Shown piece after piece: positions 25,176 to 60,220 of a stretch of DNA of 64,000 nucleotides. Both the position numbers and the translations under genes were made by a program. The stretch comes from Liolophura sinensis. Taxonomy: Eukaryota > Mollusca > Polyplacophora > Chitonida > Chitonidae. Where the stretch lies: assembly GCF_032854445.1 (NCBI RefSeq), contig NC_088295.1:5210501-5274500 (forward strand), in the 5' to 3' direction. The notes beneath the pieces were generated by a model. That model saw nothing but the letters and a program-made list of their open reading frames with translations. It ran no database searches and had not been told where the DNA came from. Within the stretch, counting starts at the first letter, position 1. Every line of letters begins with the position of its first letter.

Positions 25176-28100
25176 CTGAAAGAAGACTATGTTGGTAAAT
25201 GACGACTACAGCTTCCTTTCCGGCCCATTTATCATATGAGAAAACAAACGACCTGAAACAGACCTGAAGTTTAGTGTTGGTAATATACACAGAAATATTT
25301 CCAAGTCGTCACTGAGAATATTCGCCGTTTATAAATGTTTGCACAAGAACTGTGTCACCGTGCGCTTTGTGTGAAAAGTCTGGCTTTTCCTCCAGTGTTA
25401 AAGGGCCTCCTTGGCCGATGAGGTTAGCGTGCCAACACGGCGCAATGAACCACGAGCCTCCCACCAATGCGGTCACTGTGAGTTCAAGTCCAGCTTACGT
25501 TGGCTTCCTCTTCGGCCGTAGTGGAAAGGTCTTCCAGCAATCTGCGGATGTTCATGGGTCCCCCCCCCCACCTCTGGGGGGCTCTGCCCGCTTCCCTCCC
25601 ACCATAATGCTGGCTGCCGTGACACATCCTTGAGTACGGCGTAAAACACCAATAAAATAAATAAATCCAGTGTTGCAGCATAAATCTGTGACTATACAGT
25701 GGGAGAACCCTTTACAGCGAAGTCCACAGAAGAGGAATTCCAAGTTTATGCTCCACCAATAAATACCAAATACAGCTTGAAGGAGTGCTGCCAGCGAACA
25801 TCTGTGTTTTGCGAAACTAAACTGTGGATACGAACTGGGCTTCCATGCTATACACCGAAGTCTGGAAGCGTGATAAGTTATACCAGATTTCTGCACCTAC
25901 AATGAATTTCTACACACCTTACCGTGAAACATCATTAACTTCCAAGACCAAGAAGTTGATGAATGTCGCTGTGGAATGACAAACGTAAATAAGTATTCTG
26001 GATATATACTTACTGATAGTTGATTAATCTGGCTTAGGGAATGACAAACGCCCTTTTCGTTTATAGGACTAGCTCTCGGTAAGGAGTGAGGGAGTGCTTG
26101 ACGTTTAACGTTACTTAATAATTTTTCAGTTATATGACAACAAAGGAGTCTTCAAAGTGCATGTAATGTGCCTCCTTGTTGCAGGAGGACAGATTTTCAC
26201 CGCTCTTTTATTTAGTGTTGCTTCACTGGGACGCCTTACTGAAGCCGCCCCGCCCGAGCAATTATACTGATACAAGTCAACCGTTGCACTATCCCTTCAT
26301 GCTGAACACCAAGCGAGAATGTTACAACTTCTTCTTTTAAGGTATGAGCTGTTACAACTTCTTCTTTTAAGGTATGAGGTGTGACTCGATCCAGGATTGA
26401 CCCTGGATCTAGCCCTCCCGAAGCGGACGCTCTACCAACTGTGCTAACGGGTCCGGTCCTGTAGGCACTTTATCTGTTCTGGATATATACTAGTTGATGA
26501 TTCTGGCCTAGGGCGTTCCCTTTTGAATGACAAATGCCTTACGATATAGCTATGGAACAGGCACCGTTGTCAGCACTGGATATATACTGGTAGTTGATGA
26601 TTCTGGCGTAGGGTGCTCCCTGTGGAATGACAAATGCTTTACGATATAGCTATGGAACAGGCACCTTTGTCAGCAGGGATATATACTTACTGGTAGTTGA
26701 TGATTCTGGCGTAGGGCGCTCCCTGTGGAATGACAAATTCTTTACGATATAGCTAAGGAACAGGCACCTTTGCAGCACTGGATACATACTTACTGGTAGT
26801 TGATGATTCTAGCCTAGGGCGCTCCCTGTGGAATGACAAATGCTTTACGATGTACCTATAGAACAGGCACCTTTGTCAGCACTGGATACATACTTACTGG
26901 TAGTTGATGATTCTAGCCTAGGGCGCTCCCTGTGGAATGACAAATGCCTTACGTTGTAGCTATGGAACAGGCGCCTTTGTCAGCAGGGATATATACTTAC
27001 TGGTAGTTGATGATTCTGGCGTAGGGCGCTCCCTGTGGAATGACAAATGCCTTACGATGTAGCTATGGAACAGGCACCGTTGTCAGCACTGGATATATAC
27101 TTACTGGTAGTTGATGATTCTGGCGTAGGGCGTTCCCTGTGGAATGACAAATGCTTTACGATCTAGCTATGTAACAGGCACCTTCGCAGCACTGGATACA
27201 TACTTACTGGTAGTTGATGATTCTGGCGTAGGGCGCTCCCTGTGGAATGACAAATGCCTTACGATATAGCTATGTAACAGGCACCTTCGCAGCACTGGAT
27301 ACATACTTACTGGTAGTTGATGATTCTGGCGTAGGGCGCTCCCTGTGGAATGACAAATGCCTTACGATGTAGCTATGTAACAGGCTTCTTCGCAGCACTG
27401 GATACATACTTACTGGTAGTTGATGATTCTAGTGTAGGGCGCTCCCTGTGGAATGACAAATGCCTTACGATGTAGCTATGGAACAGGCACCGTTGTCAGC
27501 ACTGGATATATACTTACTGGTAGTTGATGATTCTAGCCTAGGGCGCTCCCTGTGGAATGACAAACGCCTTACGATGTAGCTATGGAACAGGCGCCGTTGT
27601 CAGCACTGGATATATACTTACTGGTAGTTGATGATTCTGGCGTAGGGCGCTCCCTGTGGAATGACAAACGCCTCCCACGCCGTGTTATAACTTGCTGTAG
27701 CTATGGAGTAAACGCCGCAGCTCTTCGCGGCATGGTATTCCATATACCCTTTATTAGACATAAATGCATACTTTCCAGTATTTAGCAATTGTTTGCTTTC
27801 ATTGTCAGTTGAAAGTCCTGGAGAACTCTGCAATCGGTCCCAAACTTCCATGAATAACTCGGATTTGGACTCCTGTATAAATTAAAATGGCACAAAATGT
27901 ACAGCCTTGAATTGTAGCGCTTTTCATGCTACGTGAAATGCTATAAAAAGAATTACCCCTTTACACAAGGAATAGGCAATGTTTCCAAGATGAAAACCAT
28001 ATAATGGTGAACCATTTGCACGATTTTACATGATATTCACAAGGAGCTTACATAGTCATGTCTGCATATATTGCGACAGGTATTCACTTTTTAAATTTGG

Positions 28101-31100
28101 CTTTAATTTTACAATCCGGACTCAGAACAAAGCTCTTCTAGTGCGCCTTGTTTTTCAATGGTCCTATATACAATAACTTTTAAATTATTAAAAACTCGTA
28201 ACTACCAGTAATAGTAAAAACAGACTATCTCAGATTGCGTTAGAACTGATCACATATCAAATCCATATATTCACCACCATAAACATAATTACACACGAGG
28301 AGTCATTACGCATGTGTATAGATAAGGTGTCTTTTTGTGGCAGGTCGAGTCCATGCAGCCAAAGTGCTGCCCCCAAGGAAGTTTTTTGCATAACCAGACC
28401 CGGATTTGATCCAAGGTCCGCCCAGGCCTCCCGACTTCGAAGCGAATGCTCTAACCATTAGGCCACTCAAGCGGTCAAGCTCACCTTAAACATGGTTTCT
28501 GTGTAGCTTTCACTCCAGACTATGGGCTGAATCTCGTCCTGAGCTACCAATTCCTCCAGGGAGTTTATTGGCACCGGAGGTGAGAAAGGTATGGTCAGAA
28601 TAGCGGCCAGGTTGGCGGTGTAGGCGGAAACCAAGAGGATGGTAAAAAGCCACCAGAATGCAATGAGGCACCGACCTGACACCGCGTCTGGCGTGTAGTA
28701 AACACCTACAAATGAGGAAAATGCAATCACACACCAACCAGACACCGCTTCTAGCGTCTTCACCTACAAATGAGGAGAATGCAACACGACCCGACCCGAC
28801 ACCGCTTCTAGCGTCTTCACCTACAAATGAGGAGAATGCAACCCGACCCGACACCGCTTCTAGCGTCTTCACCTACAAGACATCGAACGGACACTGCTTC
28901 TGACGTGTGGTGAAGACCTACAAATGAGGAGAATGCAACCAGACACCGACCTAGTGAACACCACCTACACAATCAGCAAACTGATGGTTATAGTGTACAA
29001 CACCATATGACCGGATAGAGAACTAATTTACCATTTCATTGACACTTTTTATCTCAAGAAGCAAAATGTAAGGATTATAAAATCAAAACGTTTTGATTTT
29101 CTGAAAATAAAATTTCGGTTAAACTTATGGAAATTTACGGCAGTCTTATAAATTTTTATAATAGGCGGATTTTTACCCACAGAGACGGACATCACAAACT
29201 GTTTCTTTGTTTCCACATATTAAAGTTCGCAAGCCTTGTTGCCTGAAGAACATGAAAAAAGCCGACGGCGGTGATAGATGTTTTTCGTCACGCACGTTTG
29301 TCAGAAATGTGAACTAAATGTTACTGTAGTGTAATTGTGAAAAAGGCGAAAAAGTTTTTGTTGTTGGATAGATTGTTTACACATATGGAAATTAGCACGG
29401 AGCTAGTAGAACCGGTACAGACGTCATCGATAACGACGGTAGAACCTGTGCAGATGTCACCAACGTCGGTAGAACCGATAACGTCGCGCTCGCTGAATAA
29501 CAGGGCAACTTCCAATTATTCCGACAAAAAAACAAACATGGTTTGAGACCGCTGAAGTTCTCCTCAAACTACACAAACGAGCTCTACAACATTCCTTCTG
29601 GCGTTGTCCAGGGGCTGTTTATAGATGAAGGGAAAATGCTAAAACTTAGATCAACTATATCGGTCGTTCTTTGGGAGAGTGTCAAAAGAGGGGTCCCATA
29701 ATAATGCTGCTCACCGTCGTCAGTGAAATATTCTTGAGTACGGCGTAATAATCACCAGTCAAATGAATAAATCAAACGAGAGACGCTGAAATGAAACGCT
29801 GCTGCAGACAACATTTCGCTCACAAAACAAACCCCGAATATTCCAGTTTTTACCCAGGTTTTCTTGAACGCTGCCTTGACAGCGAGCGCCATGGGTCAGT
29901 GTTTCACTTGATCTTGATGGTGAAGGTCTAATTAACTTGGCTCTGCTTACCTTGCTCCGTGACAGAGCTGTACACCATCCACATATTATCCTCAAGGCTA
30001 GACTCATACTTTGCTTGAGATAGACACGCTTCTGGCTTCCTCTGGAATGGCGTAAATCGGTTGACAAGAAATGAGGCACCACCGGCGATAATAACAGAAA
30101 AGAGAACACAGATCCACACCGGTGCGGAGAAAGGTTTCAATGTCTTGAATAAACTCTTGCTGGCCTCGTAGCCGGGGGCGAGAGTCATGATACCGGTGCT
30201 TGCCTCTGAAAAGGGAATGGTTAAGTCCACCACCTGTTTTTTCACCGGAGTAATGATGAAAGGACCAATTGCTATTTCCGCTTCCTGAAAACTCAACAAA
30301 AGAGAATCGATGAGGATGGGAAAATGCACATGGCGGTTATGTACTGGATTAAGATTAAGAGACAAATATGCTACCTCACACAACATACAGGATTAAGATT
30401 AGGGGAAGAGACAAACATGCCACCTCACACAACTCATGGGGAACATCAGATTGAGATGTACAGGATTAAGATTAGGGGAAGAGACAAACATGCTACCTCA
30501 CACAACATACAGGATTAAGATTAGGAGAAGAGACAAACGTGCCACCTCACACAACTCATGACGAACATCCGATAGAGATGTACCGGATTAAGATTAGGGG
30601 AAGAGACAAACATGCCACCTCACACAACATACAGGATTAAGTTTAGGGGAAGAGACAAACATGCCACCTCACACAACATACAGGATTAAGATTAGGAGAA
30701 GAGACAAATATGCCACCTCACACAACTCATGAGGAACATCCGATAGAGATGTACAGGATTAAGATTAGGGGAAGAGACAAATATGTTACCTCACACAACA
30801 TACAGGATTAAATTTAGGGGAAGAGACAAACATGCTACTTCACACAACTCATGGGGAACATCAGATAGAGATGTACCGGATTAAGATTAGGGGAAGAGAC
30901 AAATATGTTACCTCACACAACATACAGGATTAAGTTTAGGGGAAGAGACAAACATGCTACCTCACACAACATACAGGATTAAGTTTAGGAGAAGAGACAA
31001 ACATGCTACCTCACACAACATACAGGATTAAGTTTAGGGGAAGAGACAAATATGCTACCTCACACAACATACAGGATTAAGATTAGGGGAAGAGACAAAT

Positions 31101-34100
31101 ATGCTACCTCACACAACATACAGGATTAAGTTTAGGGGAAGAGACAAACATGCCACCTCACACAACTCATGAGGAACATCCGATAGAGGGCATTAGGGAC
31201 CATCCGTGAGCCAAGAACGGTTGTAACGAAAATGAAACTGAGATCTGTTCATACATTTTTGCTTCTCATTAAGACACTGTATAACAGAAATACAAATCAG
31301 CAAATGCTTACGTATAAAGTGCGGACTGTGTATTTGTCTTGACACATCGGTTATTGCATATACAGGCCTATGTCTCTCCGACATTACTGACATTTGCTAA
31401 CTAATTCTACATCCAGGTAACTATCTTCCGTTAACATTATGTATGTGTTTCAGAGATCTTCCCTTAAAATTATGCATATCTTGTGTTTTACCGACTGACA
31501 ATCTAGCTTAATTCTAATGTGGATTCTTCGCCTATACTTTACGGTCTGATAAAATAGACTGTTTCGTTATGTGAATTGCCAGTTGACATGATTGGAGACA
31601 CTGATTCCATGTGTATGCAACGTAAATAATTCAGCTCTGTTAGTTGATTTTATACCCGTATGACATTTGTATTCAGCCAGTATCTTCAGTCCCATATATA
31701 ATGTTATCCTCTGGTTCTACTCCCAAAATACACATATTCCATACAAAACAGTTCTGAAACAAGGCTAAATATGAAGAGATATAATCTGTTTTCAATGTTG
31801 TTGAAATATTTCAGACAGAAAGTCCACATCGAATGATGGTTATTAAGTGCAAAACTATCCAATTGGCAACGCTGGAAGAGAACATTATTTCCTTTGATAA
31901 CGGTTGAAAAGAATTATAAAATATTTGTGGTCCTCTTTTTATGATCCCACAAAAATCTTTCCTCCATTTTATTGCATGTTCTATTGAAGCTAATATGGCT
32001 AGATGAGCTTTATCAGTTTATCAGCAAAAGGGTGCCTACTCCGTTAACTACGTTCATGATACATATGACAAGAAGGCCATTTAACATGAATTCTCCTTAT
32101 CCTACTATACACCATGAAATATTAGTTCTTTTGACCTCCCTGAACACCATGAAACATGAATTGGCCATACAACTATGTACACCATGTATAATATCAGTTG
32201 TCCTTAATCCGCATACACGCGATGTGACTTGTCGTACAGACTTATCGAAATCGAAAAGTGAAATGAAAATAGGGCAGAATAGGCCAAGTTCCTAAGCTGC
32301 ATTGATACAATACTACTGAGTACACCATTTTACATCAGTTATCAGGAGCCTGTGAGTTCAATGCCAGCTCATGTTGGCTTCCTCCCCGTATGTGGGAAAT
32401 TCCTCCAGCAACCTGCGGATGGTCGTGAGTTTCCCCCGGGCTGTGTCCGGTTTCCTCCCACCATAATATTGGCGGCCGTCGTATAAGTGAAATATTCTTG
32501 AGTACGGCGTAAAACACCAATCAAATAAATAAATACATCAGTTATCTTTACACCTCTGTACACCATGTGAAATGAATTCTGCAAACAAATTTGTACATCT
32601 GCACAACATAAATTCTTCTTACCTCTCTGTACGTCATGCACCATGAATTCTACCGATACCTCTGCACACCATGTAACTGGAATTCTTTTTTTTTTTTTTT
32701 TTTTTTTTTTGATTGGTGTTTTACGCCGTACTCAAGAATATTTCACTTATACGACGGCGGCCAGCATTATGGTGGGTGGAAACCGGGCAGAGCCCGGAGG
32801 AAACCCACGACCATCCGCAGGTTGCTCACAGACCTTCTCACGTACGGCCGGAGAGGAAACTGGAATTCTGCTCACCCCTCTGTATACCATGTAACATAAA
32901 TTCTCCTTACCCCTATGTTAACGGCATGTAACATGAATTCTCCTTACCCCTCTGTACACCATGCCCACCATGCCATTCCACGTCCCATTTTCGTCTGGGG
33001 CGCCATACTGTCCATCTGGGGGTTCTACTATGGTATAACTGGTAGCAGAAGGATTGTATCCTTTGATGGATTTCCCCAAAATAAGTTAAGGGTAATGTAC
33101 ATAATTTATTAATTAATACATTGATTCAGCTTTTTTATACACGATTGATTTTGTTAATAACATGACCTAGAAACAGAATATGCGTCAGCAACAAGAACAA
33201 TACGGCACAATATTCGGATATTAACTGTCCACTATGGAGTACATATCATCCGACAATAATATTCAGAGATTTGAGACTGGGTTCAAGTCGAGTAAAGGAT
33301 AACTTTTATGAAAGATGGACCTTACTTAACTTGGCACTTACTTGAATCCCATTCGCTCTGCCAGTTCGTCTAAAATGTTCACACAGAAGCCAGCGTAAAA
33401 GGTTCGCCCGTCTTCAATGACTCGGACCGAAAATGGCTCACTCTGAATCAACAATCAACCCCAAAACAAACAAGGTCAAAGGTAAAGGTAAAACCACAAG
33501 TAAAGAAGCCAAGAAGTGCGAGGTTTCTTGTAACCGAAGCCATGAACTGCTGGTTTGTATAGGTTTTCGGTTGGAATCACTTGTGTCTGTGTGTTTGACT
33601 TACAAGTTACGGACATTTTGATCACAAATGTCATTTTAGGCTTTATTGTTTTGTGATTACAGATTCTTATTCTTTCACCTCATGATGGGCTGCCACTCGA
33701 ATGGCCTCCGTGCCAAAGTCGTGGAAGGTGTTCAGGAAGAGGTTTCTCTTGTGAGTCACCAGGCCGTGTGTTACACTCCACTCCCCGCTGCGAACTATTG
33801 TCACCGTGTCTTTGTGAATAGAGCTACAGATGTCATACTCCCTGGTAATTGTCTCTCCTCTACCGGGCAGCACTGATAGATCTGCCTGCAAACATAAACA
33901 TCATTTTATTGGTATTATTAGGACGAGCCAGTGAATTGAATGGATGGATGGATGAATGATTATAGCTTAACACCAAGTCGATAATATTTGAGCAAACAAA
34001 GCCAAGAGATAATCGCAAATGACTATCAGAAACTTAAGGATGCTTACCAGTATGTTCTGCAGATGATGAGAATTGACCAGAGGATTTGGGTGGAACACAG

Positions 34101-36329: not shown

Positions 36330-36377
<48 letters not shown>

Positions 36378-43222: not shown

Positions 43223-43237
43223 CTCCTTAAACAAAAT

Positions 43238-43541: not shown

Positions 43542-43556
43542 CTCCTTAAACAAAAT

Positions 43557-44777: not shown

Positions 44778-44826
<49 letters not shown>

Positions 44827-45538: not shown

Positions 45539-48500
45539 GTGAGTATAGTATGGGGCCTGCTGGTAATGGTAGTAGTAGGCTACATGTGTATATATGGGAG
45601 GCGAAGCTTCAGGGGCTAAGTTTGTATAGTATGGGGCCTGCTGGTAATGGTAGTAGTAGGCTACATGTGTATATATGGGAGGCGAAGCTTCAGGGGCTAA
45701 GTTTGTATAGTATGGGGCCTGCTGTTAGTGGTAGTAGTAGGCTACATGTGTATGTATGAGAGGCGAAGCCTCAGGGGCTAAGTGAGTACAGTATGGGCCC
45801 TGCTGTTAGTGGTAGTAGTAGGCTACATGTGTATGTATGAGAGGCGAAGCCTCAGGGCTAAGTGAGTACAGTATGGGGCCTACTGTTAGTGGTAGTAGTA
45901 GGCTACATGTGTATGTATGAGAGGCGAAGCCTCAGGGGCTAAGTGAGTATAGTATGGGGCCTGCTTGTAGTGGTAGTAGTAGGCTACATGTGTATGTATG
46001 AGAGGCGAAGCCTCAGGGGCTAAGTGAGTACAGTATGGGCCCTGCTGTTAGTGGTAGTAGTAGGCTACATGTGTATGTATGAGAGGCGAAGCCTCAGGGG
46101 CTAAGTGAGTATAGTATGGGGCCTGCTTGTAGTGGTAGTAGTAGGCTACATGTGTATATATGGGAGGCGAAGCCTCAGGGGCTAAGTGAGTATGTATGGG
46201 GCCTGCTTGTAGTAGTAGGCTACATGTGTATATATGGGAGGCGAAGCCTCAGGGGCTAAGTGAGTACAGTATGGGGCCTGCTTGTAGTGGTAGTAGTAGG
46301 CTACATGTGTATGTATGAGAGGCGAAGCCTCAGGGCTGAGTACAGTATGGGGCCTGCTGGTAATGGTAGTAGTAGGGCTACATGTGTATGTATGGGAGGC
46401 GAAACCTCAGGGGCTAAGTGAGTACAGTATGGGGCCTGCTTGTAGTGGTAGTAGTAGGCTACATGTGTATATATGGGAGGCGAAGCCTCAGGGGCTAAGT
46501 GAGTATAGTATGGGGCCTGCTTGTAGTGGTAGTAGTAGGCTACATGTGTATGTATGGGAGGCGAAGCCTCAGGGCTAAGTGAGTACAGTATGGGGCCTGC
46601 TGGTAATGGTAGTAGTAGGCTACATGTGTATGTATGGGAGGCGAAGCCTCAGGGGCTAAGTGAGTACAGTATGGGGCCTGCTTGTAGTGTAGTAGTAGGC
46701 TACTGTGTATGTATGGGAGGCGGAAGCCTCAGGGGGCTAAGTGAGTACAGTATGGGGCCTACTGTAGTGGTAGTAGTAGGCTACATGTGTATGTATGGGA
46801 GGCGAAGCCGTCAGGGGGCTAAGTGAGTACAGTATATGGGGGCCTACTTGTAGTGGGTAGTAGTAGGTTACTTGTGTGTATGTATGGGAGGTTAGCTGCT
46901 GTGGTTGCTGTCATTATAAAGTACCACATCAAGGGGGTGTGTAATGGGTGGGGGAGCGGGATGATGGGGTTGGAGTGTGCTGGGCAGAGAACGTCATATA
47001 ATTTTAGATGCTGAAGCAAAACCAGCCAATAATCTGTTAATGCTAGAAAATGTTCTTGCTTGTTTAAGCCCAGCTAATTTAGACGGGCTTCAACACCTCC
47101 CCAAGCTTACCTGTATCTCCATAGTACCAGGCAGAGGGATATTAGTGTAATCCAATCAGAAGAAATGGCCAGTTATATAAAGAATTTTGAGATGCAACAT
47201 AATGTGTCAACTTCTCAATACATAACTATCTTCAAGTTTTAATCATAGTTAATTTTAGATTGTCTGCTGGTAGGCAAAATAAATGGCGCTAGATGTAACT
47301 CCTTTGTTGAACTAAGATTTCAGTTTGCTGGCACCTACACGTACAGCAGCTTAACTATACACACATTGTATATAAACCATGCAGATATGTGGTCCTGACC
47401 TCCAAGCACCATGAGGGATTCACAAACTGGCCTTCCCCCGTCTCTTGGAACTGGAACGCCATGGATGTGGGACCAGAACGGGACCTTGTGGGTGAGTCAC
47501 TGAGATGGTTAAAGGTGGAGAAAACATAAAAATGACATATAAAGTTCAGATGAAAGAGTTAATGAAAAAGTTATTCCTAAATGTGGTCTTCAATATTTTT
47601 TTTTCCGATTTTTTGTTAAGGAGAAAAAGACACTTGAAAAAAATTTTGTATGGCGGATATTTGGGACCACCTTTTCGTGTTTATAGTCTTTGTTTAAAAA
47701 TGTTATAAATGAGGATTCAACACAGGTTTAATAAATATTTTTGCACAAGAATTTGTTTTTTTAGTCAACAAATGTATTAAACCTCAATTTGGATCATATT
47801 TGTATTATTAATATGTTCATAAATATTATCATAATTTAGGTTAAATACATATGTTTCGATATAAGCTACAAATTTACATTCAAATAAATTTATTAGACAA
47901 GTATCACATCCTTTTTTAGAACATCATTTTGCAGCAGTCATCAATACCAAAAGTTGGTCCCAAATACTCACTATACAGAAATATTTTAAAATACCATTTC
48001 CTCTTGAAACAAAAATCAAAAAAAAAAAATTAAAGATCATATTTGCAAATAAGTTTTGACGCTGTTTCACCCGATTTTGGCATCATTTTTATGTTTTCTT
48101 CTCCTTTAAGGCATGCAGATCTCACATTTTGACATTGTTACATCCTATCTAACATGTTGTGAGGTAATATGACGACAGTGTCACAGCCTATGTCATATTT
48201 TGTGAGGTAATGTGATGATAGTATCACAGCCTACATGTATGTCTCATTTGTGGGAAGCAATATGATGACAGTGTCAGAGCATATCTCACATTCTGTTAGA
48301 TGTTCTGATGATGATGTCAAAGCCTATACCTCACTAGATGTATTATGATGACAGTATCAGAGTGTTCTTATGATGATGTTACAGCCTGTACCTTACTAGA
48401 TGTATTATGATGACAGTATCACAGTGTTCTGATGATGATGTTACAGCCTGTACCTTACTAGATGTATTATGGTGACAGTATCACAGTGTTCTGATGATGA

Positions 48501-51500
48501 TGTTACAAGCTATACCTCACTAGATGTAATATGGTGACAGTATCATAGTGTTCTGATGATGATGTTACAGGCTATACCTCACTAGATGTATTATGGTGAC
48601 AGTATCACAGTGTTATGATGATGATGATGTTACAGGCTATACCTCACTAGATGTATTATGATGGCAGTATCACAGTGTTCTGATGATGATGTCACAGGCT
48701 ATACCTCACTAGATGTATTATGATGACAGTATCACAGTGTTCTGATGATGATGTCACAGGCTATACCTCACTAGATGTATTATGGTGACAGTATCACAGT
48801 GACGTGATGATGATGTTACAGGCTATACCTCACTAGATGTATTATGGTGACAGTAGCACAGTGTTCTGATGATGATGTCACAGGCTATATCTCACTAGAT
48901 GTATTATGGTGACAGTATCACAGTGTTCTGATGATGATGTTACAGCCTATACATCACTAGATGTATTATGGTGACAGTATCACAGTGACGTGATGATGAT
49001 GTCACAGGCTATACCTCACTAGATGTATTATGGTGACAGTATCACAGTGTTCTGATGATGATGTTACAGGCTATATCTCACTAGATGTATTATGATGACA
49101 GTATCACAGTGTTCTGATGATGATGATGTCACAGCCTATACATCGCTTGATGTATTATGATGATGATGTTACAGGCTATATCTCACTAGATGTATTATGG
49201 TGACAGTATCACAGTGTTCTGATGATGATGTTACAGGCTATACCTCACTAGATGTATTATGGTGACAGTATCACATTGTTCTGATGATGATGTTACAGGC
49301 AATACCTCACTAGATGTATTATGATGACAGTATCACAGTGTTCTGATGATGATGTCACAGGCTATACCTCACTAGATGTATTATGATGACAGTATCACAG
49401 TGTTCTGATGATGATGTTACAGGCTATACCTCACTAGATGTATTATGGTGACAGTATCACAGTGTTCTGATGATGATGTCACAGGCTATACCTCACTAGA
49501 TGTATTATGATGACAGTATCACAGTGTTCTGATGATGATGTTACAGGCTATATCTCACTAGATGTATTATGGTGACAGTATCACAGTGTTCTGATGATGA
49601 TGGTACAGCCTGTACCTTACTATTAGCACATTGTGTGGGGTATTATGATCACAGTATCACAGTGTTCTGATGATGATGTTACAGCCTATACATCACTAGA
49701 TGTATTATGATGACAGTATCACGGTGTTCTGATGATGATGGTATTGGATGTGGTATTGGTGCTTTTGCCCATATTTAGTGGTAAACTGTGTTCAATATTC
49801 CTAAGAAAGAGGAAGCAGAACCCTTGTTTCATATGAGAAGCCATAAATATTCCGTTACTGTAATATACAGAAGTAATGTGCCTGTAATGTGGTGTTTTTA
49901 CCTTCTCAGGTGACCTGGCGAATGCTGTGCGCAGCAAGCCTGGCTTACATTGGGGACTGTATCACTCTCTGTTTGAGTGGTTCCACCCTCTCTACCTGAG
50001 CGACAAGAAGAACAACTTCACCACTCAGGAGTTTGTGGCTGTAAGTGAAATACCGATGGCCATACATGTATCCATTGTTTGATATATTGTCGGAACACCA
50101 AACTGCAGAAATATTGTAACCTGTAATTCATATCATAATTTCATTATATAACAGATTATAATACACAAAATTAACTGAGATAACATGAAGTTTAACCAGG
50201 GTGTGCAGAAAAATGGTCACTGAAAAGTCTTCAAATCTTATTGATAAATAAATCAGTGAAGATACTGTATTCTTTCACTGATTCTGTCATAAAAGGTTTA
50301 AAAAAAAATATGTAGGTGCATTAGCACTGTAAGCATTGCCTACATAATGATCTGACTCATCACAGCTTTCATAGTTGGAACATCAGCTGTTGCATTCCAT
50401 TTAATGCAACATCATCTGTTGCATTAAACAGTGTTTATGTTGGTTGTTTGGTTTTTATTTTTCTTTCCCGTTTTTTGTGCTTTTCTTCCAATGCCCTTCA
50501 CAATAATGAATAGCAAAAGATTTTCCATTAGAGTTGTGTTTGCATCAATATTTCGCATCAAAATAACTGTATAAGATGACTCTGATTGTTTTACAGAGGA
50601 AGACCATGCCAGAGTTGTATGAGATTGTGAATGCTTACAAGCCAGAATTGATTTGGTCTGATGGTGATTGGGAAGCCCCTTATAATTATTGGAACTCTAC
50701 TGAGTTTATAGCATGGCTCTACAATGACAGGTATACGACTTATATACTGCTTAACACTTATGGTTGTATGTGGGTTCAATAATTATGATGAAGTCAACAA
50801 TTTTTCAGTCATACAATGACAAAGGAAACGTTAGAAGGTATGTAATGTGCTTCCTTGTTGGCGGACAGATTTTCACGGCTTTTTTATCTAGTGCTGCTTC
50901 CGAAGGCAAGTAAGACGCCCCGCATGAGCCATTATACTGATACGGGTCAACCTGTCTGAACAGCCTTCATATGTTCCTTAATTCTGTAATACAGAGGTCT
51001 ACCAGTTTCTCCAATATATTCACCCCCACACTCGCACACTATGTAGTAAATATTTTTTCTGCTTTTATGAGGTTCAGTATCTTTGACATTTTTCAAAATA
51101 TTACCTAATGCTTTCCTGTATTAAAAACTACCCGAAAATCTTCCTTACGTAAAAATATGTCTTAGTTAGTCTATGTCTTAACTTTTTCACTTAAGCCTGG
51201 GACATTTGGTAATTTTATGAGTCGTGTTGGTTTCTCTTCAAGTGTTTTTGTATCACTAACTTTCTTTGATTTGATGATATGATGATTTTTACGTTTTTCA
51301 TAACCATGGGCTAAGAACACATCAGTTAAGTGATAAAGTTCTTCTTGCAGGCATTCTTTATCACAAACTGTATAGGTATAGGTAATCTATGTAATACCCC
51401 AAGTTTAGTTTCATTAGAATGACCTGGTAAATAATGAAACAGAGGGCAGTATGTGTAGTTTTGCCATAAACTGAAGTTCTAATGTTAATCCTGGATTCAC

Positions 51501-54500
51501 CTACTCATTCAACTAAAACATCTAGGAACGGTAGTTTGTGGTTTCCTTCCATCTCCATGGTAAATTGAATAGACTGATGTATGGATTTCAAACATTGTAA
51601 GAATGAAGGAGGATTCTGTTTACCATGATCCCATGTTAGAAAGGTGTCATCTACATATGTCAACCATAATTTGGGTTTTTAATATTGGGAAACATTGAAA
51701 AATGTCAAAGATATTGAACCTCAAAACAGTAAGAAAACCATCTACGACGTAGCATACGAGTGTGTGGGTGAATATTTTGGAGAAACTGGTAGACCTATTT
51801 ATCATAGAATTAAGGAACACTTGATTATTAGGTGTAGTGCACCTACTGGAACTCCACACAGTTCATGGTATAGCTCTACAATGACAGGTGTACTGCACCT
51901 ACTGGAACTCCACACAGTTCATGGTATAGCTCTACAATGACAGGTGTACTGCACCTACTGGAACTCCACACAGTTCATGGTATTGCTCTACAATGACAGG
52001 TGTACTGCACCTACTGGAACTCCACACAGTTCATGGTATAGCTCTACAATGACAGGTGTACTGCACCTACTGGAACTCCACACAGTTCATGGTATAGCTC
52101 TACAATGACAGGTATACCACACTTACTGGAACTCCACACAGTTCATGGTATAGCTCTACAATGACAGGTGTACTGCACCTACTGGAACTCCACACAGTTC
52201 ATGGTATAGCTCTACAATGACAGGTGTACTGCACCTACTGGAACTCCACACAGTTCATGGTATAGCTCTACAATGACAGGTGTACTGCACTTACTGGAAC
52301 TCCACACAGTTCATGGTATAGCTCTACAATGATGGGTATACCACACTTACCAGAACTCTACAGAGTTTATTGTTTGGTTCTGTAATGACAGCTATACCAC
52401 CCTTGCTGGAATTCCACACAGTTTATTGCTTGGTTCTATAATGACAGGTGTGCCAGACTTACTGAAACCCCACACAGTTTATAGCATGGCTGTACAGTGG
52501 CAGGTATACCACACTTACTGGAACACCACACAGTTCATGGTATAGCTCTACAATGACAGGTGTACTGCACCTACTGGAACTCCACACAGTTCATGGTATA
52601 GCTCTACAATGCCATCTGTACTGCACCTACTGGAACTCCACACAGTTCATGGTATAGCTCTACAATGACAGGTATACCACACTTACTGGAACTCCACACA
52701 GTTCATGGTATAGCTCTACAATGACAGGTGTACTGCACCTACTGGAACTCCACACAGTTCATGGTATAGCTCTACCATGACAGGTGTACTGCACCTACTG
52801 GAACTCCACACAGTTCATGGTATAGCTCTACAATGATGGGTATACCACACTTACCAGAACTCTACAGAGTTTATTGTTTGGTTCTGTAATGACAGCTATA
52901 CCACCCTTGCTGGAATTCCACACAGTTTATTGCTTGGTTCTATAATGACAGGTGTGCCAGACTTGCTGAAACCCCACACAGTTTATAGCATGGCTGTACA
53001 GTGGCAGGTATACCACACTTACTGGAACACCACACAGTTCATGGTATAGCTCTACAATGACAGGTGTACTGCACCTACTGGAACTCCACACAGTTCATGG
53101 TATAGCTCTACAATGACAGGTGTACTGCACCTACTGGAACTCCACACAGTTCATGGTATAGCTCTACAATGACAGGTATACCACACTTACTGGAACTCCA
53201 CACAGTTCATGGTATAGCTCTACAATGACAGGTGTACTGCACTTACTGGAACTCCACACAGTTCATGGTATAGCTCTACAATGACAGGTGTACTGCACCT
53301 ACTGGAACTCCACACAGTTCATGGTATAGCTCTACAATGACAGGTGTACTGCACTTACTGGAACTCCACACAGTTCATGGTATAGCTCTACAATGATGGG
53401 TATACCACACTTACCAGAACTCTACAGAGTTTATTGTTTGGTTCTGTAATGACAGCTATACCACCCTTGCTGGAATTCCACACAGTTTATTGCTTGGTTC
53501 TATAATGACAGGTGTACCAGACTTATTGAAACTCCACACAGTTTATAGCATGGCTGTACAGTGGCAGGTATACCACACTTACAGGAACTCCACACAGTTT
53601 ATAGTATTGCTCTACAATGACAGGTATACAGGCACTTACTGGAACACCACACAGTTTATAGTATGGCTGTACAATGACAGGTATACCACACTTACTGGAA
53701 CTCCACACAGTTTATAGTATGGCTGTACAATGACAGGTATACCACACTTACAGGAATACCACACAGTTTATAGTATGGCTCTACAATGACAGGTATACAG
53801 GCACTTACTGGAACTCCACACAGTTTATAGTATGGCTGTACAATGACAGGTATACCACACTTACTGGAACTCCACACAGTTTATAGTATGGCTGTACAAT
53901 GACAGGTATACCACACTTACTGGAACACCACACTTACTGGAACACCACACAGTTTATAATATGGCTCTACAATGACAGGTATACCACACTTACTGGAACT
54001 CCACACAGTTTATAGTATGGCTGTACAATGACAGGTATACCACACTTACTGGAACTCCACACAGTTTATAGTATGGCTGTACAATTACAGGTATACCACA
54101 CTTACTGGAACACCACACAGTTTATAGTATGGCTCTACAATGACAGGTATACCACACTTACTGGAACTCCACACAGTTTATAACATGGCTCTACAGTGAC
54201 CAGCACACCGCAATTATGGGAACTCCACACAGTTTATAACATGGTTCTACAACGGCAGATATATCACACTTACTGAAACTCCACACAGTTTATTGCATGG
54301 TTCTATAATGACAAGTGTACCAGACTTACCGGAACTGAACACAGTTTATAGCATGGTTCTATATTGACAGGTATACAACACTTCATAGTAGGCCTACTTA
54401 TAATATGGCTCTGCAGTGGTCAGTATGCCATAGGTAATGAAGCTCAACATAACTTGTATCTCTACAGTGACAGTTTGCCACAAATAGTGTATATAGGATA

Positions 54501-57500
54501 ATTCCTCATATTTAGATAACACTTGGCTTATGTCATTCTATGTGTACAGGATGAATACATCTTTCTCTTTTCCTATTACTACTTCAGTTGAACACACCCA
54601 AGTTAAGTTCTCTAGGCTAGACATCAGTAAGCATGTACACTGCACCATTCACGATTCACCAAAGATGTTTGAACCTTAAGTGTGTGTACTGATAAGCAGC
54701 ATGCTTACTTTGCAGTCCAGTGAAGGACACGATTGTTGTGAATGACCGATGGGGTAAAGGATCAACATGTCAGCATGGTGATTACTACACCTGTTCTGAT
54801 CGTTTTAATCCAGGTGAGTTGTTGGCCTTCCTTCTGGCTTATCCAGGCTGGTGGGTTGTCGACTTTCCTTCCAAGCTTATCCAGACAGGTGAGTTGTTAA
54901 CCTTCCTTCCAGGCTTATCCAGACAAGTGAGTTGTTACCGGTACTTCCCAACATGTGATATTATCGTTCCCCTGAAGTTTACATGGTGATCGAAAATTCC
55001 TTCCCCTGAATTTACGCGTAGGAGACAGGCTATTGGCACTTGATTGCCTCTTATGTCGACGCCTGGATAGGTGAGCTGTTAACCCTCCTTCCAGGATTAT
55101 CCAGACAGGTGGGTAGTTGACCTTCCTTTCAGGCTTGTACAGACAGGTCAATTGTTGACCTTCCTTCCAGAATGATCCAGACAGGTGAGTTGTTGACCTT
55201 CTCTCCAGGCTTATCCAGACAGGTTAGTTGTTAACCTCCCTCCAGGTTTATCAAGACAGGTGAGTTGTTGACCTTCCTTCCAGACTTATCCAGACAGGTG
55301 AGTTGTTGGCCTTCCTTCTAGGCTTATCTAGACAGGTGAGTTCTTGACCTTCCTTCCAGGCTTATCAAAACAAATGAGTTGGCCTTCCTTCCAGACTTAT
55401 CTAGACAAGTGAGTTGTTGGCATTCCTTCCCGGCTTATCTAGACAAGTGAGTTGTTGGCCCTCCTCCCAGGCTTATCTGGACAGGTGAGTTGTTGGCATT
55501 CCTTCCAGGCTTATCCAGACAAGTGAGTTGTTGGCCTTCCTTCCAGGCTTATCCAGACTTATCCAGACAAATGAGTTGTTAGCCCTCCTCCCAGGCTTAT
55601 CTGGACAGGTGAGTTGTTGACCTTCCTTTCAGGCTTCTCTAGACAGGTGAGTTGTTGGCCTTCCTCTCAGGCTTATCTAGACAGGTGAGTTGTTGACCTT
55701 CCTTTCAGGCTTATACAGACAAGTGAGTTGTTGACCTTCCTTCCAGGCTTATCCAGACAAATGAGTTGTTAGCCCTCCTCCCAGGCTTATCTGGACAGGT
55801 GAGTTGTTGACCTTCCTTTCAGGCTTCTCTAGACAGGTGAATTGTTGGCCTTCCTCCCAGGCTTATCTAGACAGGTGAGTTGTTGGCCTTCCTTCCAGGC
55901 TTCTCTAGACAGGTGAGTTGTTGACCTTCCTTCCAGGCTTATCAAAACAAATGAGTTGTTGGCCTTCCTTCCAGACTTATCTAGACAGGTGAGTTGTTGG
56001 CCTTCCTTCCAGGCTTCTCTAGACAGGTGAGTTGTTGGTTTTCCTTCCAGGCTTCTCTAGACAGGTGAGTTGTTGGCCTTCCTTCCAGGCTTATCAAAAC
56101 AAATGAGTTGTTGGCCTTCCTTCCAGACTTATCTAGACAGATGAGTTGTTGGCCTTCCTTCCAGGCTTCTCTAGACAGGTGAGTTGTTGGCCTTCCTTCC
56201 AGGCTTCTCTAGACAGATGAGTTGTTGGCCTTCCTTCCAGGCTTCTCTAGACAGGTGAGTTGTTGGCCTTCCTTCCAGGCTTATCCAGACAAGTGAGTTA
56301 TTGACCTTCCTTCCAGGCTTATCTGGACAGGTGAGTTGTTGACCTTCCTTTCCGGCTTCTCTAGACAGGTGAGTTGTTGGCCTTCCTTCCAGGCTTCTCT
56401 AGACAGGTGAGTTGTTGGCCTTCCTTCCAGGCTTCTCTAGACAGATGAGTTGTTAGCACTCCTCCCAGGCTTATCTGGACAGGTGAGTTGTTGGCCTTCC
56501 TTCCAGGCTTCTCTAGACAGATGAGTTGTTAGCACTCCTCCCAGGCTTATCTGGACAGGTGAGTTGTTGGCCTTCCTTCCAGGCTTATCAAAACAAATGA
56601 GTTGTTGGCCTTCCTTCCAGACTTATCTAGACAGGTGAGTTGTTGGCCTTCCTTCCAGGCTTCTCTAGACAGGTGAGTTGTTGGTCTTCCTTCCAGGCTT
56701 CTCTAGACAGATGAGTTGTTGGCCTTCCTTCCAGGCTTATCCAGACAAGTGAGTTGTTGACCTTCCTTCCAGGCTTATCTGGACAGGTGAGTTGTTGACC
56801 TTCCTTTCAGGCTTCTCTAGACAGATGAGTTGTTGGCCTTCCTTCCAGGCTTATCTAGACAGGTGAGTTGTTGGCCTTCCTTCCAGGCTTCTCTAGACAG
56901 GTGAGTTGTTGGCCTTCCTTCCAGGCTTCTCTAGACAGATGAGTTGTTGGCCTTCCTTCCAGGCTTCTCTAGACAGGTGAGTTGTTGGCCTTCCTTCCAG
57001 GCTTCTCTAGACAGATGAGTTGTTGGCCTTCCTTCCAGGCTTATCCAGACAAGTGAGTTATTGACCTTCCTTCCAGGCTTCTCTAGACAGGTGAGTTGTT
57101 GACCTTCCTTTCAGGCTTCTCTAGACAGGTGAGTTGTTGGCCTTCCTTCCAGGCTTATCTAGACAGGTGAGTTGTTGGCCTTCCTTCCAGGCTTCTCTAG
57201 ACAGGTGAGTTGTTGGCCTTCCTTCCAGGCTTCTCTAGACAGATGAGTTGTTGGCCTTCCTTCCAGGCTTCTCTAGACAGGTGAGTTGTTGGCCTTCCTT
57301 CTAGGCTTATCTAGACAGGTGAGTTGTTGACCTTCGTTCCAGGCTTATCTAGACAGGTGAGTTGTCGACCTTCCTTCCAGGCTTCCAGACAGGTGAGTTG
57401 TCGACCTTCCAGGCTCATGAAGAAAGGTATTTAAATTTTGTGTTAATGTAGGCGGCGGGGTATAATTATACTGGAAACACCCATTCTATCCATCTGTCTG

Positions 57501-60220
57501 TCGACACGATTTTGTCCATGCATCTCCCCCCAAACTGCTATGCTGATTTTGATGAAACTTACATGTACCATACATCTTACCTGTCACCTGAATTTGTGCT
57601 CGCTGAGGTTTAATGACAGTCAGGTGATTTTTTTCATAACTACACCCATTAAGGACTGCAGATTTTGTTCATACAACCCCTCATAAAGTACTGAACGTAT
57701 TTCCATGAAACTTGGCATACATCTTCCCTATAATCTTAACTTGTGCATGCTTAAGTTCAGTTAGAAATGGGTAGTTATTTTAATAATTACTCCAGTTCAG
57801 GTACTTAATGCATTGTCATTTACACTTTGTTCTCTTTTGATTGTTACATTTCTCCATTCAAACTGGATGTACATGTAGTGCAATCAGTGCACACCATGCC
57901 TGTGGGTGAAACTCTGTCACATGGGAGACAGATTATAAGTTACATGTCAAGGGTTAACATACTTGTTGTGGTTACTTCCATTTATCAAACTGATCTATGT
58001 AGTATAACAGTCCTCAGTATGATGGTGAACCCAAATGAAGGAAATATATTAGTTAATTGAAGGATCTAGACTCTAGGATCTGGAAAGAAAACAGTCTATA
58101 AGTGGAATTAAGATGTGAGCTAATATATACAGTGTATTCTCTGTGAATAATGAAGTAATAAACCATTCAGTGTGTGTCTCTGTGGTATTCAGTTCATGTT
58201 AACAGGATTTTGTGCTGGCTTTTTTCTACAGGTATCCTACAGAAACACAAATGGGAGAATGCCATGACGATTGATAAGAACTCCTGGGGGTACCGTCGTA
58301 ATGCTAGGCTCTCTGACTACCTGACCATTGAGGAGCTACTGAACACGCTGGTCATCACCGTCAGGTCAGTTCTGGTAACTATACCTGACCATTGAGAAGT
58401 TATAGACCACTCTGGTCACCCCTGTGGGGTCAGTGCTGGTCACTCTAACTGACCATTGAGGAGTTATTGACCAATCTGGTCAACCCTGTGGGGTCAGTGC
58501 TGGTCACTTTAACTGACAATAAGATTACTGACAACTCTGGTCATCACCGTCACATCAGTGCTGGTTACTGTACCTGACCACTGAGGAGCTTCTCACTATT
58601 TTGGTCATTACTGTCAGGTGAGTACTGGTGACTTTGCATGACCATAGAGGCGTTACTGACTATTCTCGTCATCCCCATCAGGTCAGTGCTGGTCACTGTA
58701 AGTGGCCACTGAGCAATTAGTGACCACACTAGTCATCACATAGTGCACACTTCAATACAGTGTAGTGCACGCTTCAATACAGTGTAGTGCACACTTCAGT
58801 ACAGTGTAGTGTACACTTCAGTACAGTGTAGTGTACACTTCAATCCAGTGTAGTGCACACTTCAATACAGTGAAGTGTACGCTTCAATCCAGTGTATTGT
58901 ACGCTTCAGTACAGTGCAGTGCACGCTTCAGTCCAGTGCAGTGCACGCTTCAGTCCAGTGTAGTGTACGCTTCAGTCCCGTGTAGTGCACACTTCAGTCC
59001 AGTATAGTGCACGCTTCAATCCAGTGTAGTGCATGCTTCAGTTCAGTGTAGTGCACGCTTCAATCCAGTATAGTGCACTCTTCAGTCCAGTGTAGTGCAC
59101 ACTTCAATCCAGTGTAGTGCACACTTCAGTCCAGTGTAGTGCACGCTTCAATCCAGTGTAGTGTACGCTGGTTCAATCCTGGACTTAAGCAGTTGTTGAT
59201 GTATCCTGGGGGTGTGGGTAAGTATACGGTTGTGGTAGTATCATAATGCTAGGATTTGCATGTCTGCATGTGTTGATTACTTCATGTGAATACATATATT
59301 GACTCATTGATGTTCCATCTTTGGAGTAAAACACAGTACTTGTGATTACAGCACTGGGGGAAATATGCTTATGAATGTGGGTCCGTCGGCTGACGGGAGA
59401 ATAGCGCCCATATTTGAGGAGAGACTTCGTCAGATGGGGCAGTGGTTGTCTGTGAACGGGGAGAGCATTTACAGCACGAAGCCATGGCGTTTTCAGAATG
59501 ATACGGTCACTCCAGATGTCTGGTAAGATGCATGAATTCTCCTCCCTGTACATTTGTGTAGTTTTACTTCTCTGCTGTTTCTTTTTATTCTTTTTTTTGA
59601 GTTGTGAAGTATGCTGATTCTAGTAGAACTAATCTAACACTTGCTGGTCCAGTCCATCTAGTATAGCGGTGAAAACATTTATGTACTTATTTGAATAGTG
59701 TTCTGTGTTGTACTGTGTTGAGTATTTAGACTCCTACAATAGCGACCAGCTTTATGGTGGGAGAAAACCAGGCAAAGCCTACGGGAAGCCCACGACTATC
59801 CACACGTTGCTTGCACGTCTTCGCACATACGTGCAGAGGGGCCCAGCATAGACAGTGAAGGCATGACAGCAGTTTAATCCTGTGATTGTATAAGTAGTTT
59901 GTGAAAGTACATGTATATGTATGCGATGTATCAGCACTGACCATTCCTTCTGGTGTTTAAACAGGTACACCTCACGACCAGTAGGCACCCGCTCTACTGT
60001 CTACGCAATCGCTCTCAGCTGGCCTAAGAATAACCAGCTTTATCTGGATGCCCCCATCACCACCTCAGCCACCAATGTGACCTTACTGGGATACCCTAAC
60101 CCACTGCGATGGAGTCCAGGCTCGCTGGAGGGGATCAGGATTACAGTGCCTGCCCTCAATGTGAACGAGCTGCCCTGTCAGTGGGCCTGGGTCTTCAGGA
60201 TGGAAGGTCTCGAGTTCTAA
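45147..60220 (+). CDS. alpha-L-fucosidase (GH29), 8 exons, 473 aa (complete)
   Basis: Retaining exo-glycosidase that removes alpha-L-fucose from glycoconjugates, expected in lysosome or secreted. Eight exons join with GT-AG sites and consistent phase to 1,422 nt. An N-terminal signal peptide (about 1-27) is followed by the catalytic barrel: [12 protein letters not shown] (52-63, His56), [10 protein letters not shown] (134-143), and LIWSDGDWE with nucleophile Asp232. KWENAMTID carries Glu296, which aligns with the proposed acid/base of human FUCA1. [10 protein letters not shown] and the C-terminal beta domain (from about 388) follow. The length is normal for the family. The Cys that follows KWEx in the classical signature is Ala here. 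I chose the ATG at 45147 because it opens a good leader; an upstream in-frame TTG is not a likely start. Six of the seven introns carry repeats or mobile elements. Confidence 0.96.
45539..46890. repeat. exon-end-derived minisatellite, 81-bp unit, about 16 copies, fucosidase intron 1
   Basis: Each unit contains gaagcctcaggggctaa (last 17 nt of exon 1) followed by gtgagtatagtatggggcct and a body ending ctacatgtgtatgtatg. Most copies keep an intact gtgagt donor; the first two or three have gtttgt. The array starts immediately at the real donor and decays at its far end. Confidence 0.95.
47385..47491 (+). CDS. fucosidase gene 1, exon 2
   Basis: Acceptor aaaccatgcag. Completes Lys131, then [17 protein letters not shown] and [16 protein letters not shown], both conserved GH29 blocks. 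Donor gtgagt, phase 1. Confidence 0.95.
47513..48105. mobile_element. MITE flanked by TTAA, fucosidase intron 2
   Basis: 593 bp, AT-rich, non-coding. The left end aggtggagaaaacataaaa and the reverse complement of the right end, aggagaagaaaacataaaa, match over about 23 bp with 2 mismatches. TTAA flanks both ends (47509-47512, 48106-48109), a target duplication typical of piggyBac-type elements, but the terminal bases are not the usual piggyBac CCC. Confidence 0.75.
48120..49745. repeat. minisatellite, 62-bp unit, about 25 copies, fucosidase intron 2
   Basis: The unit gatgatgatgttacaggcta plus tacctcactagatgtattat plus ggtgacagtatcacagtgttct recurs at 62 bp. The first 250 bp hold longer, more divergent forms. 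It lies 165 bp upstream of exon 3; no clear exon similarity. Confidence 0.94.
49910..50040 (+). CDS. fucosidase gene 1, exon 3
   Basis: Acceptor tttttaccttctcag. [20 protein letters not shown], then [19 protein letters not shown], with an N-glycosylation sequon NFT. Donor gtaagt, phase 0. Confidence 0.95.
50041..50596. other. fucosidase intron 3, no array
   Basis: 556 bp without tandem repeats or recognised mobile element. The only intron of this gene apparently free of both. Confidence 0.6.
50597..50730 (+). CDS. fucosidase gene 1, exon 4 (catalytic nucleophile)
   Basis: Acceptor gattgttttacag. [18 protein letters not shown], then IWSDGDWEA with Asp232, then [16 protein letters not shown]. 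Donor gtatac, phase 2. The last 42 bases of this exon are the source of the array at 51840-54300. Confidence 0.96.
50785..50955 (-). mobile_element. SINE fragment (family B), fucosidase intron 4
   Basis: Same body as 26075-26465 in the same orientation: aatttttcagtcatacaatg, ggcggacagattttcacggc, gacgccccgcatgagccatt. The tRNA-like end is missing and the sequence runs into a Penelope-like remnant. Confidence 0.75.
50956..51690 (-). pseudogene. decayed Penelope-like retroelement (RT end plus GIY-YIG endonuclease)
   Basis: On the minus strand, broken by stops and frameshifts: [18 protein letters not shown] (reverse transcriptase catalytic YVDD), [10 protein letters not shown], then after about 400 bp the endonuclease segment [19 protein letters not shown], then RIKEHM. 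This order is that of Penelope-like elements. It is an old, inactive copy in intron 4. Confidence 0.8.
51691..51836 (+). pseudogene. inverted second fragment of the Penelope-like endonuclease
   Basis: The + strand reads [17 protein letters not shown], then [21 protein letters not shown], the same endonuclease segment as in the minus-strand copy at 50956-51690. The two are in head-to-head inverted arrangement. It ends where the 56-bp array begins. Confidence 0.75.
51840..54300. repeat. exon-end-derived minisatellite, 56-bp unit, about 44 copies, fucosidase intron 4
   Basis: Each unit has ctggaactccacacagttt plus atagcatggctctacaatgacag and gtataccacactta. This is about 42 nt of the exon 4 end with its donor plus about 14 nt of intron. 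The array starts about 1.1 kb after the real exon, beyond the Penelope-like remnants. Blocks with a Val/Leu-type variant (tttattgtttggttctgtaa) recur at about 52330, 52833 and 53393, showing roughly 500-560-bp higher-order duplication. Confidence 0.95.
54301..54715. other. fucosidase intron 4, distal unique part
   Basis: Decayed array copies at its start, then unique DNA up to the acceptor of exon 5. Confidence 0.5.
54716..54813 (+). CDS. fucosidase gene 1, exon 5
   Basis: Acceptor gcttactttgcag. [16 protein letters not shown], then [13 protein letters not shown], strongly conserved in GH29. Donor gtgagt, phase 1. Confidence 0.96.
54814..57420. repeat. splice-junction minisatellite, 38-bp unit, about 65-68 copies, fucosidase intron 5
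   Basis: The unit gtgagttgttggccttcctt plus ccaggcttctctagacag starts exactly at the exon 5 donor (atccag|gtgagttgttggcc). Every unit carries a pyrimidine tract, an AG, and cag|gtgagt or cag|atgagt. About 4 in 5 copies appear to keep an intact gtgagt. Unit variants: cttatccagac, cttctctagac, cttatcaaaac. Confidence 0.96.
57450..57800. repeat. two-unit interspersed-type repeat
   Basis: Two related segments, tttgatgaaacttacatgtac and ttccatgaaacttggcatac, each followed by atctt and a ttgtgc(t/a) box, lie about 170 bp apart. This looks like a fragment of a dispersed repeat; no family assigned. Confidence 0.4.
58232..58364 (+). CDS. fucosidase gene 1, exon 6 (acid/base Glu)
   Basis: Acceptor ggcttttttctacag. 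[20 protein letters not shown], then [17 protein letters not shown]. Donor gtcagt, phase 2. Glu296 is in KWEN. The residue two after it, Cys in the classical signature, is Ala. Confidence 0.96.
58365..58735. repeat. degenerate exon-end-derived repeats, about 65-bp unit, 6 copies, fucosidase intron 6
   Basis: Copies of ctgaccattgaggagctact plus ctggtcatcaccgtcag|gtcagt, the last about 45 nt of exon 6 plus its donor, follow the exon directly at about 58385, 58453, 58574, 58637 and 58702. They are more diverged than the arrays of introns 1, 4 and 5. Confidence 0.88.
58736..59170. repeat. minisatellite, about 22-bp unit, about 20 copies, fucosidase intron 6
   Basis: The unit gtgtagtgcacacttcaatcca repeats with single-base variants up to 59170. 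Contiguous with the preceding exon-derived repeats. Confidence 0.95.
59352..59522 (+). CDS. fucosidase gene 1, exon 7
   Basis: Acceptor cttgtgattacag. [18 protein letters not shown], then [20 protein letters not shown]. Donor gtaaga, phase 2. Confidence 0.96.
59738..59845 (-). mobile_element. SINE fragment (family A), fucosidase intron 7
   Basis: atagcgaccagctttatggtg, then aaccaggcaaagcctacggg and cacgactatccacacgttgc match the reverse complement of the SINE middle. The 3' tail is missing. Confidence 0.7.
59965..60220 (+). CDS. fucosidase gene 1, exon 8 (C-terminal domain, stop)
   Basis: Acceptor ggtgtttaaacag. Completes Trp389, [17 protein letters not shown], then [16 protein letters not shown] and a final [12 protein letters not shown] before TAA at 60218-60220. 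Confidence 0.96.

Follow-up and report, generated by a model that had tools for sequence, protein, structure and literature searches.

Are splice junctions preferred birthplaces of minisatellites, or are they copied about as often as the intron sequence beside them? This question is raised by a 64-kb stretch of the Liolophura sinensis genome (the window; positions are counted from its first base), in which two genes carry tandem arrays whose repeat units reach across an exon-intron boundary. The window sits on contig 1 of a 609-Mb genome assembly with 632 contigs. Tandem Repeats Finder (TRF) gave 75 rows over the window, and the array intervals, hand-listed from these rows, cover 37% of it.

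Junction arrays in a fucosidase and a glutamate receptor gene

The + strand gene encodes an alpha-L-fucosidase (PF01120) and is referred to as fucosidase gene a. Exons E1-E7 were modelled, the 6/6 introns between them begin with GT and end with AG, and the spliced frame is open when the exon-side junctions are used. The model is as follows.

45147..45538, + strand: exon 1, which ends in GGGGCTAA and is followed by GTGAGT
47385..47491, + strand: exon 2
49910..50040, + strand: exon 3
50597..50730, + strand: exon 4, which ends in AATGACAG and is followed by GTATAC
54716..54813, + strand: exon 5, which ends in AATCCAG and is followed by GTGAGT
58232..58364, + strand: exon 6
59352..59524, + strand: exon 7, with a provisional 3' end

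The arrays within this gene, together with a spacer in intron 4, are listed next.

45522..46891, + strand: intron 1 junction array; 81-bp unit made up of the last 17 nt of exon 1 and the 5' splice site (TRF, alignment)
48131..49740, + strand: intron 2 arrays with 43- and 62-bp units, intron-only (TRF)
50745..51835, + strand: spacer from exon 4 to the intron 4 array, built from dispersed repeats
51840..54383, + strand: intron 4 junction array; 56-bp unit of ~44 nt of exon 4 and 12 nt of intron (TRF)
54811..57410, + strand: array over the 5' junction of intron 5, with two main TRF rows; the 38-bp unit takes in the 5' splice site and 3 nt of exon 5
58318..58739, + strand: array over the 5' junction of intron 6; the 64-bp unit includes 47 nt of exon 6 (TRF)
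58741..59169, + strand: second array of intron 6, 22-bp unit, intron-only (TRF)

The - strand gene encodes an ionotropic glutamate receptor (PF00060), part of which was modelled; its intron numbers 9 and 12 follow the count used in the preliminary description of the window.

26491..27673, - strand: intron 12 junction array; 103-bp unit with 52 nt of exon, exon end at 27622 (TRF)
28703..28878, - strand: array over the 3' splice site ahead of the M3 exon, which starts at 28705; 57-bp unit (TRF)
30357..31166, - strand: intron-only array with a 49-bp unit, the second one in the intron that holds the intron 9 junction array (TRF)
32863..32963, - strand: array over the 5' junction of intron 9; 37-bp unit, with the exon ending at 32948 (TRF)

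The preliminary description had reported fucosidase arrays that copy four 5' junctions (introns 1, 4, 5 and 6) and three receptor arrays (5' junctions of introns 9 and 12 and one 3' junction). Both sets are real, as judged from TRF together with the fucosidase gene model and the receptor exon ends, respectively. Weaker copies in receptor intron 9 (at least 18/28 bases) carry that array on to +847, at ~32100. Many intron-only arrays lie in the same genes as the junction arrays, and no copy of a junction was found in the intron 2 arrays of fucosidase gene a.

The intron 4 array of gene a is displaced and starts 1,109 bp downstream of its donor. Part of the spacer (~160 bp) matches at least 35 other places among the best 40 of 2,480 candidates scored; a different part is bounded by inverted ends of 125 bp that are 84% alike. 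The reading frame within the spacer had no Pfam match, and its interpretation as a GIY-YIG remnant was rejected on that search.

Most copies of the 5' junction keep their GT. This holds for 14/15 aligned copies in intron 1 of gene a, for 49/63 aligned copies in intron 5, where 36 score at least as high as the real donor, and for every aligned copy in receptor intron 12 (10/10 or 11/11, depending on the alignment). In 4/11 arrays the copies have the same median donor score as the real donor, and in 7/11 they have a lower one, which could reflect decay or weak selection.

A repeat type already named in amphioxus

Contrary to the preliminary description, which knew of no named system of this kind, such repeats have a name. 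Tandem repeats over an exon-intron boundary are called "mirages", a term coined for amphioxus Adh3 (Canestro et al. 2002, via PMC3087553). The amphioxus globin genes BflGb6 and BflGb9 carry mirages at 5' and 3' boundaries, and the authors of the globin report take their data to suggest that regular splicing is undisturbed (PMC3087553). Mirages are further characterised by unstable length, also in somatic tissue.

The chiton junction arrays are the same kind of repeat in a new animal. In both animals, going by the mirages described in the globin report, the tandem unit crosses the 5' or 3' exon-intron boundary while the real junction is retained; mirage units measure tens to ~160 bp and many copies carry AG/GT signals, and the chiton arrays are alike in these respects. 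Chiton units span the boundary at 5' junctions in fucosidase introns 1, 4, 5 and 6 and at the 3' junction before the receptor M3 exon, with further 3' junction arrays in intron 1 of fucosidase j and intron 6 of fucosidase t. Many copies, not all, keep AG/GT, the AG of the 3' arrays being judged by eye. The chiton differs in being a mollusc and not a cephalochordate host, and some of its arrays have tens of copies, such as the 77 aligned copies in intron 4 of fucosidase gene b. The best literature matches included no report of such repeats from a mollusc or chiton, though a report may still exist in print.

Boundary repeats are also described from humans. CBS contains a 31-bp VNTR at the exon 13-intron 13 boundary (PMC5188458), which is likewise a minisatellite at an exon-intron boundary; unlike the chiton arrays, it is presented in that source as a single locus of non-coding sequence with a copy number linked to enzyme activity. 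Human segmental duplications contain internal tandem repeats at exon-intron boundaries, with units of 30 bp on average (PMC2812944). These resemble the chiton arrays in their minisatellite size and position, but that report ties them to new introns or exon change, whereas the intron positions of the chiton fucosidases are unchanged in paralogues.

Copying of junctions in 25 gene regions

Splice sites were modelled in 25 gene regions, the two discovery genes excluded: nine fucosidase representatives, nine CCT/chaperonin genes and seven ALDH regions. CCT and ALDH were picked by protein family, one CCT array being visible already at selection, and ALDH served as a replicate for which 13 of 97 candidates were scored. 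Seventeen fucosidases were modelled, gene a included, and several partial loci were left out; one representative was kept per clade, so that the within-clade paralogues f, h, q, r, s, u and v were omitted. Four CCT loci (two intronless, two partial) and ALDH region A8, which is without a modelled intron, were likewise omitted, as were intron 4 of gene c and intron 6 of gene w, whose arrays are the same by descent as those of b and t. Intron 4 of gene b was further omitted in the position-matched three-copy count. Exon gaps remain in some gene models.

For each junction, a 60-bp window over the site was searched for a copy in the intron-side flank that covers at least 4 nt on each side. The control put the same question to intron windows that are not themselves copies, either all such windows or those 60-500 nt from the same sites. 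Since the windows overlap, the Fisher values are only a guide and the gene bootstrap is the better measure. The position-matched control is preferred because array-poor long introns dominate the all-intron control, a preference that was formed post hoc. Donor 295 and acceptor 199 of CCT gene K5 were entered by hand, the latter as a match with ~5 nt of exon, and donor 4723 of ALDH region A7 is a junction array by eye, yet had no match in the any-copy or the all-intron three-copy counts.

When any copy within 1,500 bp was counted, 8/132 donors (6.1%) were matched against 223/5,517 control windows (4.0%; one-sided Fisher p = 0.17), with a gene-bootstrap ratio of 1.46 (0.49-3.00). Acceptors were matched at 3/129 against 237/5,531 (4.3%), and both sides together at 11/261 against 460/11,048 windows (4.2%; p = 0.53). 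The matched sites are divided among fucosidases (4/53 donors, 2/53 acceptors), CCT (3/57 and 1/56) and ALDH (1/22 donors, with a control of 5.7%, and 0/20 acceptors). At a higher score, donors stood at 7/132 against 3.3% (p = 0.16), and within 600 bp the donor p value was 0.105. Within 300 bp the donor count was 7/132 against 2.7% (p = 0.07; ratio 1.92, 0.68-4.01), and with a stricter score 7/132 against 2.5% (p = 0.049; ratio 2.10, 0.77-4.37).

Larger values were obtained with at least three copies and all intron windows as the control: 8/132 donors against 92/5,572 windows (1.7%; Fisher p = 0.002), with ratios of 3.59 (1.47-7.29) at 600 bp and 3.41 (1.36-6.96) at 1,500 bp. The donor result persisted without the array related to intron 4 of gene a (7/131, p = 0.007). 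Acceptors were matched at 1/129 against 1.8%, or at 2/130 with gene w kept, the site being matched in w and unmatched in t although the array is the same by descent. Both sides together gave p = 0.045 and 0.058, and the ALDH regions had 1/22 donors against 2.2%. With the 60-500 nt control, the three-copy count was 7/131 donors against 54/1,655 windows (3.3%; p = 0.15; ratio 1.61, 0.57-3.52), 1/129 acceptors against 51/1,788 (2.9%), and 8/260 for both against 105/3,443 (3.0%; p = 0.54; ratio 0.98, 0.33-1.98). Donors compared directly with acceptors gave 7/131 vs 1/129 (p = 0.066).

The dependence on the control fits the heavy weight of array-poor long introns among all intron windows. Fucosidase l, for instance, has a 6.3-kb intron with zero TRF arrays. 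A step profile has its maximum at the donor (5.3%), with 1.7-4.8% between 60 and 500 nt into the intron.

Counts based on TRF alone comprised 26 intron-only, 5 donor and 2 acceptor arrays, which is 7 junction arrays against 2.6 expected (ratio 2.7, p = 0.014; p = 0.009 at a score of at least 100); an earlier version of the count had p = 0.046 and 0.032. With three half introns added by hand, p was 0.0015. Donors alone gave p = 0.008, and by group p was 0.11 for CCT, 0.052 for fucosidases and 0.03 for gene a. These counts include one mis-modelled donor and miss diverged junction copies. Correction of the donor leaves 6/33 junction arrays (p = 0.044), and 5/33 (p = 0.12) when an array with 1 nt of exon 5 is also dropped. 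A position-coverage count was set aside as biased to long arrays.

The over-representation of junctions proposed in the preliminary description has at most partial support. Donors are in excess under the all-intron control (3.4-3.6 fold), but both sides together have no secure excess; under the any-copy, 300-bp and 60-500 nt controls, the donor values are 1.5-2.1 fold with intervals that include 1. The 3' sites have no excess in any window count of the 25 gene regions. With both kinds pooled, junctions and the intron beside them are copied at similar rates, and a preference for 5' sites is possible and at most mild.

Three arrays in these regions were noted in their own right. CCT gene K4 (L024, local 378-5125) has a 47-bp intron-only array of ~101 copies that occupies 4.7 of the 6.6 kb of the first modelled intron. 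In CCT gene K5 (L027, donor local 6677), the 66-bp junction unit is in frame and stop-free in the copies displayed, and use of a downstream donor would add 22 residues per unit. A 79-bp array in ALDH region A2 (L036, local 6059-6295) has, by eye, a first unit that covers the end of the reading frame and the sequence after the stop.

Origin and fate of the arrays

The best reading, which we hold at a probability of roughly two in three (0.68), is that these are intronic minisatellites, in a genome rich in such repeats, that grew from a segment lying across a splice junction by chance and were tolerated. Short tandem duplications would arise roughly anywhere in gene DNA through slippage or repair. 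Coding constraint suggests that those internal to exons would be purged, and those in introns or at their intron-side edge would be free to expand. The exon copy remains the real junction, while the intron-side copies grow to tens of units, most of them with GT. The exon-side site, paired across its exon, would keep being used, and the decoys may be nearly neutral. Splicing must choose among such sites by position, which fits exon definition, an established idea in the splicing field. With short unique intron sequence and units of ~40-60 bp, arrays would be expected to fall on a few per cent of junctions. In favour of this reading are the similar copying rates of junctions and intron, the even share of exon in the units, the intron-only arrays of the same genes, the ordinary variability of the GT columns, the shared positions of the fucosidase introns, and the array of ALDH region A2, which by eye lies over the end of a reading frame and not over a splice site. 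Replication slippage, as suggested in the preliminary description, is an acceptable mechanism, and a link to the junction is unnecessary.

Less probable, though to be taken seriously as a minority view, is birth targeted to junctions, in which R-loops, stalled transcription or cotranscriptional splicing would cause breaks or slips at nascent junctions, mostly at 5' sites. In its specific form, 5' but not 3' sites would be hot spots of minisatellite birth (~two- to three-fold) through a lesion of nascent donors that is tied to transcription or splicing, with clustering in certain chiton genes; we regard this form, too, as doubtful. The donor ratio of 3.6 (1.5-7.3) against all intron windows, the TRF-only ratio of 2.7 (p = 0.014) and the surplus of donors over acceptors (p = 0.066) speak for it. 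So do the junction copies at 3/6 donors of gene a in 60-bp homology windows, which is many against the wider sample; junction arrays are unusually frequent in gene a and in CCT gene K5. However, the ratio is 1.6 (0.57-3.5) with the 60-500 nt control and 1.46 (0.49-3.00) when two-copy events are counted, and the all-intron control on which the largest value depends is weighted by long array-poor introns. Acceptors are without excess, and the ALDH replicate had 1/22 matched donors against 5.7% or 2.2%. The share of exon in the unit is also uniform: among 14 junction arrays, of which the discovery genes contribute seven, it is evenly spread (mean 0.49, KS p = 0.98; hand-entered values with little power). 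An even share is not expected from a process that cuts at or is centred on the junction, within the little power of 14 values.

Selection that retains redundant splice sites in the copies, also raised in the preliminary description, is very unlikely. GT is kept in most copies, as this idea would predict, but conservation of the GT columns is not clearly above that of the remaining unit columns (mean percentile 0.41 of column-pair diversity in nine arrays, p = 0.16). Moreover, copies often score below the real donor and most donors have no array. GT in the copies is neither clearly retained nor purged.

We give as little credence to the arrays being birth scars of introns made by tandem duplication of an exon stretch with AG/GT. 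Intron gain of this type goes back to Rogers 1989 (via PMC3087553), and the amphioxus globin paper proposes it for mirages (PMC3087553). The anatomy of the chiton units is what the model needs, as the duplication takes in a splice signal in both cases. In contrast to that model, the chiton fucosidase introns also occur in paralogues without an array and are not new: across 17 fucosidase paralogues, all 102 donors and 102 acceptors are GT/AG and fall on six shared intron positions, and most of these paralogues lack an array at a given junction. The fucosidase introns are therefore older than the arrays, and by this comparison of paralogous sequences the arrays did not create them.

The arrays have a history of their own among paralogues. 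The intron 4 array of genes a, b and c is one array, shared by descent or exchange. In b and c it is contiguous with the exon, unlike the displaced array of gene a. Between the three genes, identity of the unit consensus sequences is 93-95% for the exon portion and 100% over 12 intron bases, against 75-84% for exon 4 itself and 56-59% for the last 200 nt of intron 4. Distances between copies are 0.17-0.20 between genes, little above the 0.13-0.17 within genes, and 133/160 copies have their nearest relative only in their own gene. A consensus (51840-54383 in gene a, and its equivalents in b and c) that is more alike than its source exon points to long persistence or exchange between paralogues.

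A different kind of duplication was seen in paralogue r (L012/L013, G000:C6:39285450-39298600), where the stretch from exon 3 to exon 4 is present three times in tandem, ~1,820 bp apart. At the exon lengths of gene a (131 + 134 nt), the two exons do not add up to whole codons, so use of all copies would shift the frame.

Repair templated by partly spliced RNA, a further idea of the preliminary description, would account for units that hold exon plus intron but is highly improbable, as the units read are contiguous genomic sequence and, in this unsystematic reading, no intron-removed copy was seen among them. An assembly artefact is just as improbable: tandem arrays are hard to assemble, but the assembly is described as based on HiFi reads (PMC11068029), the copies differ from one another, and related arrays occur in the separate paralogues a, b and c.

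Elsewhere in the assembly, contig C99 (G000:C99) holds seven copies of COX1 at intervals of ~15.5 kb, in addition to the mitochondrial contig C632 of 15.2 kb. This series represents tandem mitochondrial copies or an unresolved circle. No tRNA was found in the mitochondrial contig when it was searched under the bacterial code. A molluscan haemocyanin is present in the genome, and the mitochondrial gene order agrees with that of chitons; amphioxus as the source was rejected on the haemocyanin and on contigs far larger than those of amphioxus, together with a GFP-family search that had no match and by itself says little.

Whether junctions are called hot spots depends strongly on the control that is chosen. 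Minisatellites that span exon-intron boundaries exist outside amphioxus, and they are not rare in one chiton, in which 11/261 sites have copies. Intron 4 of fucosidase gene b, where 65/77 aligned copies keep GT, is a natural test of how the spliceosome chooses among similar donors.
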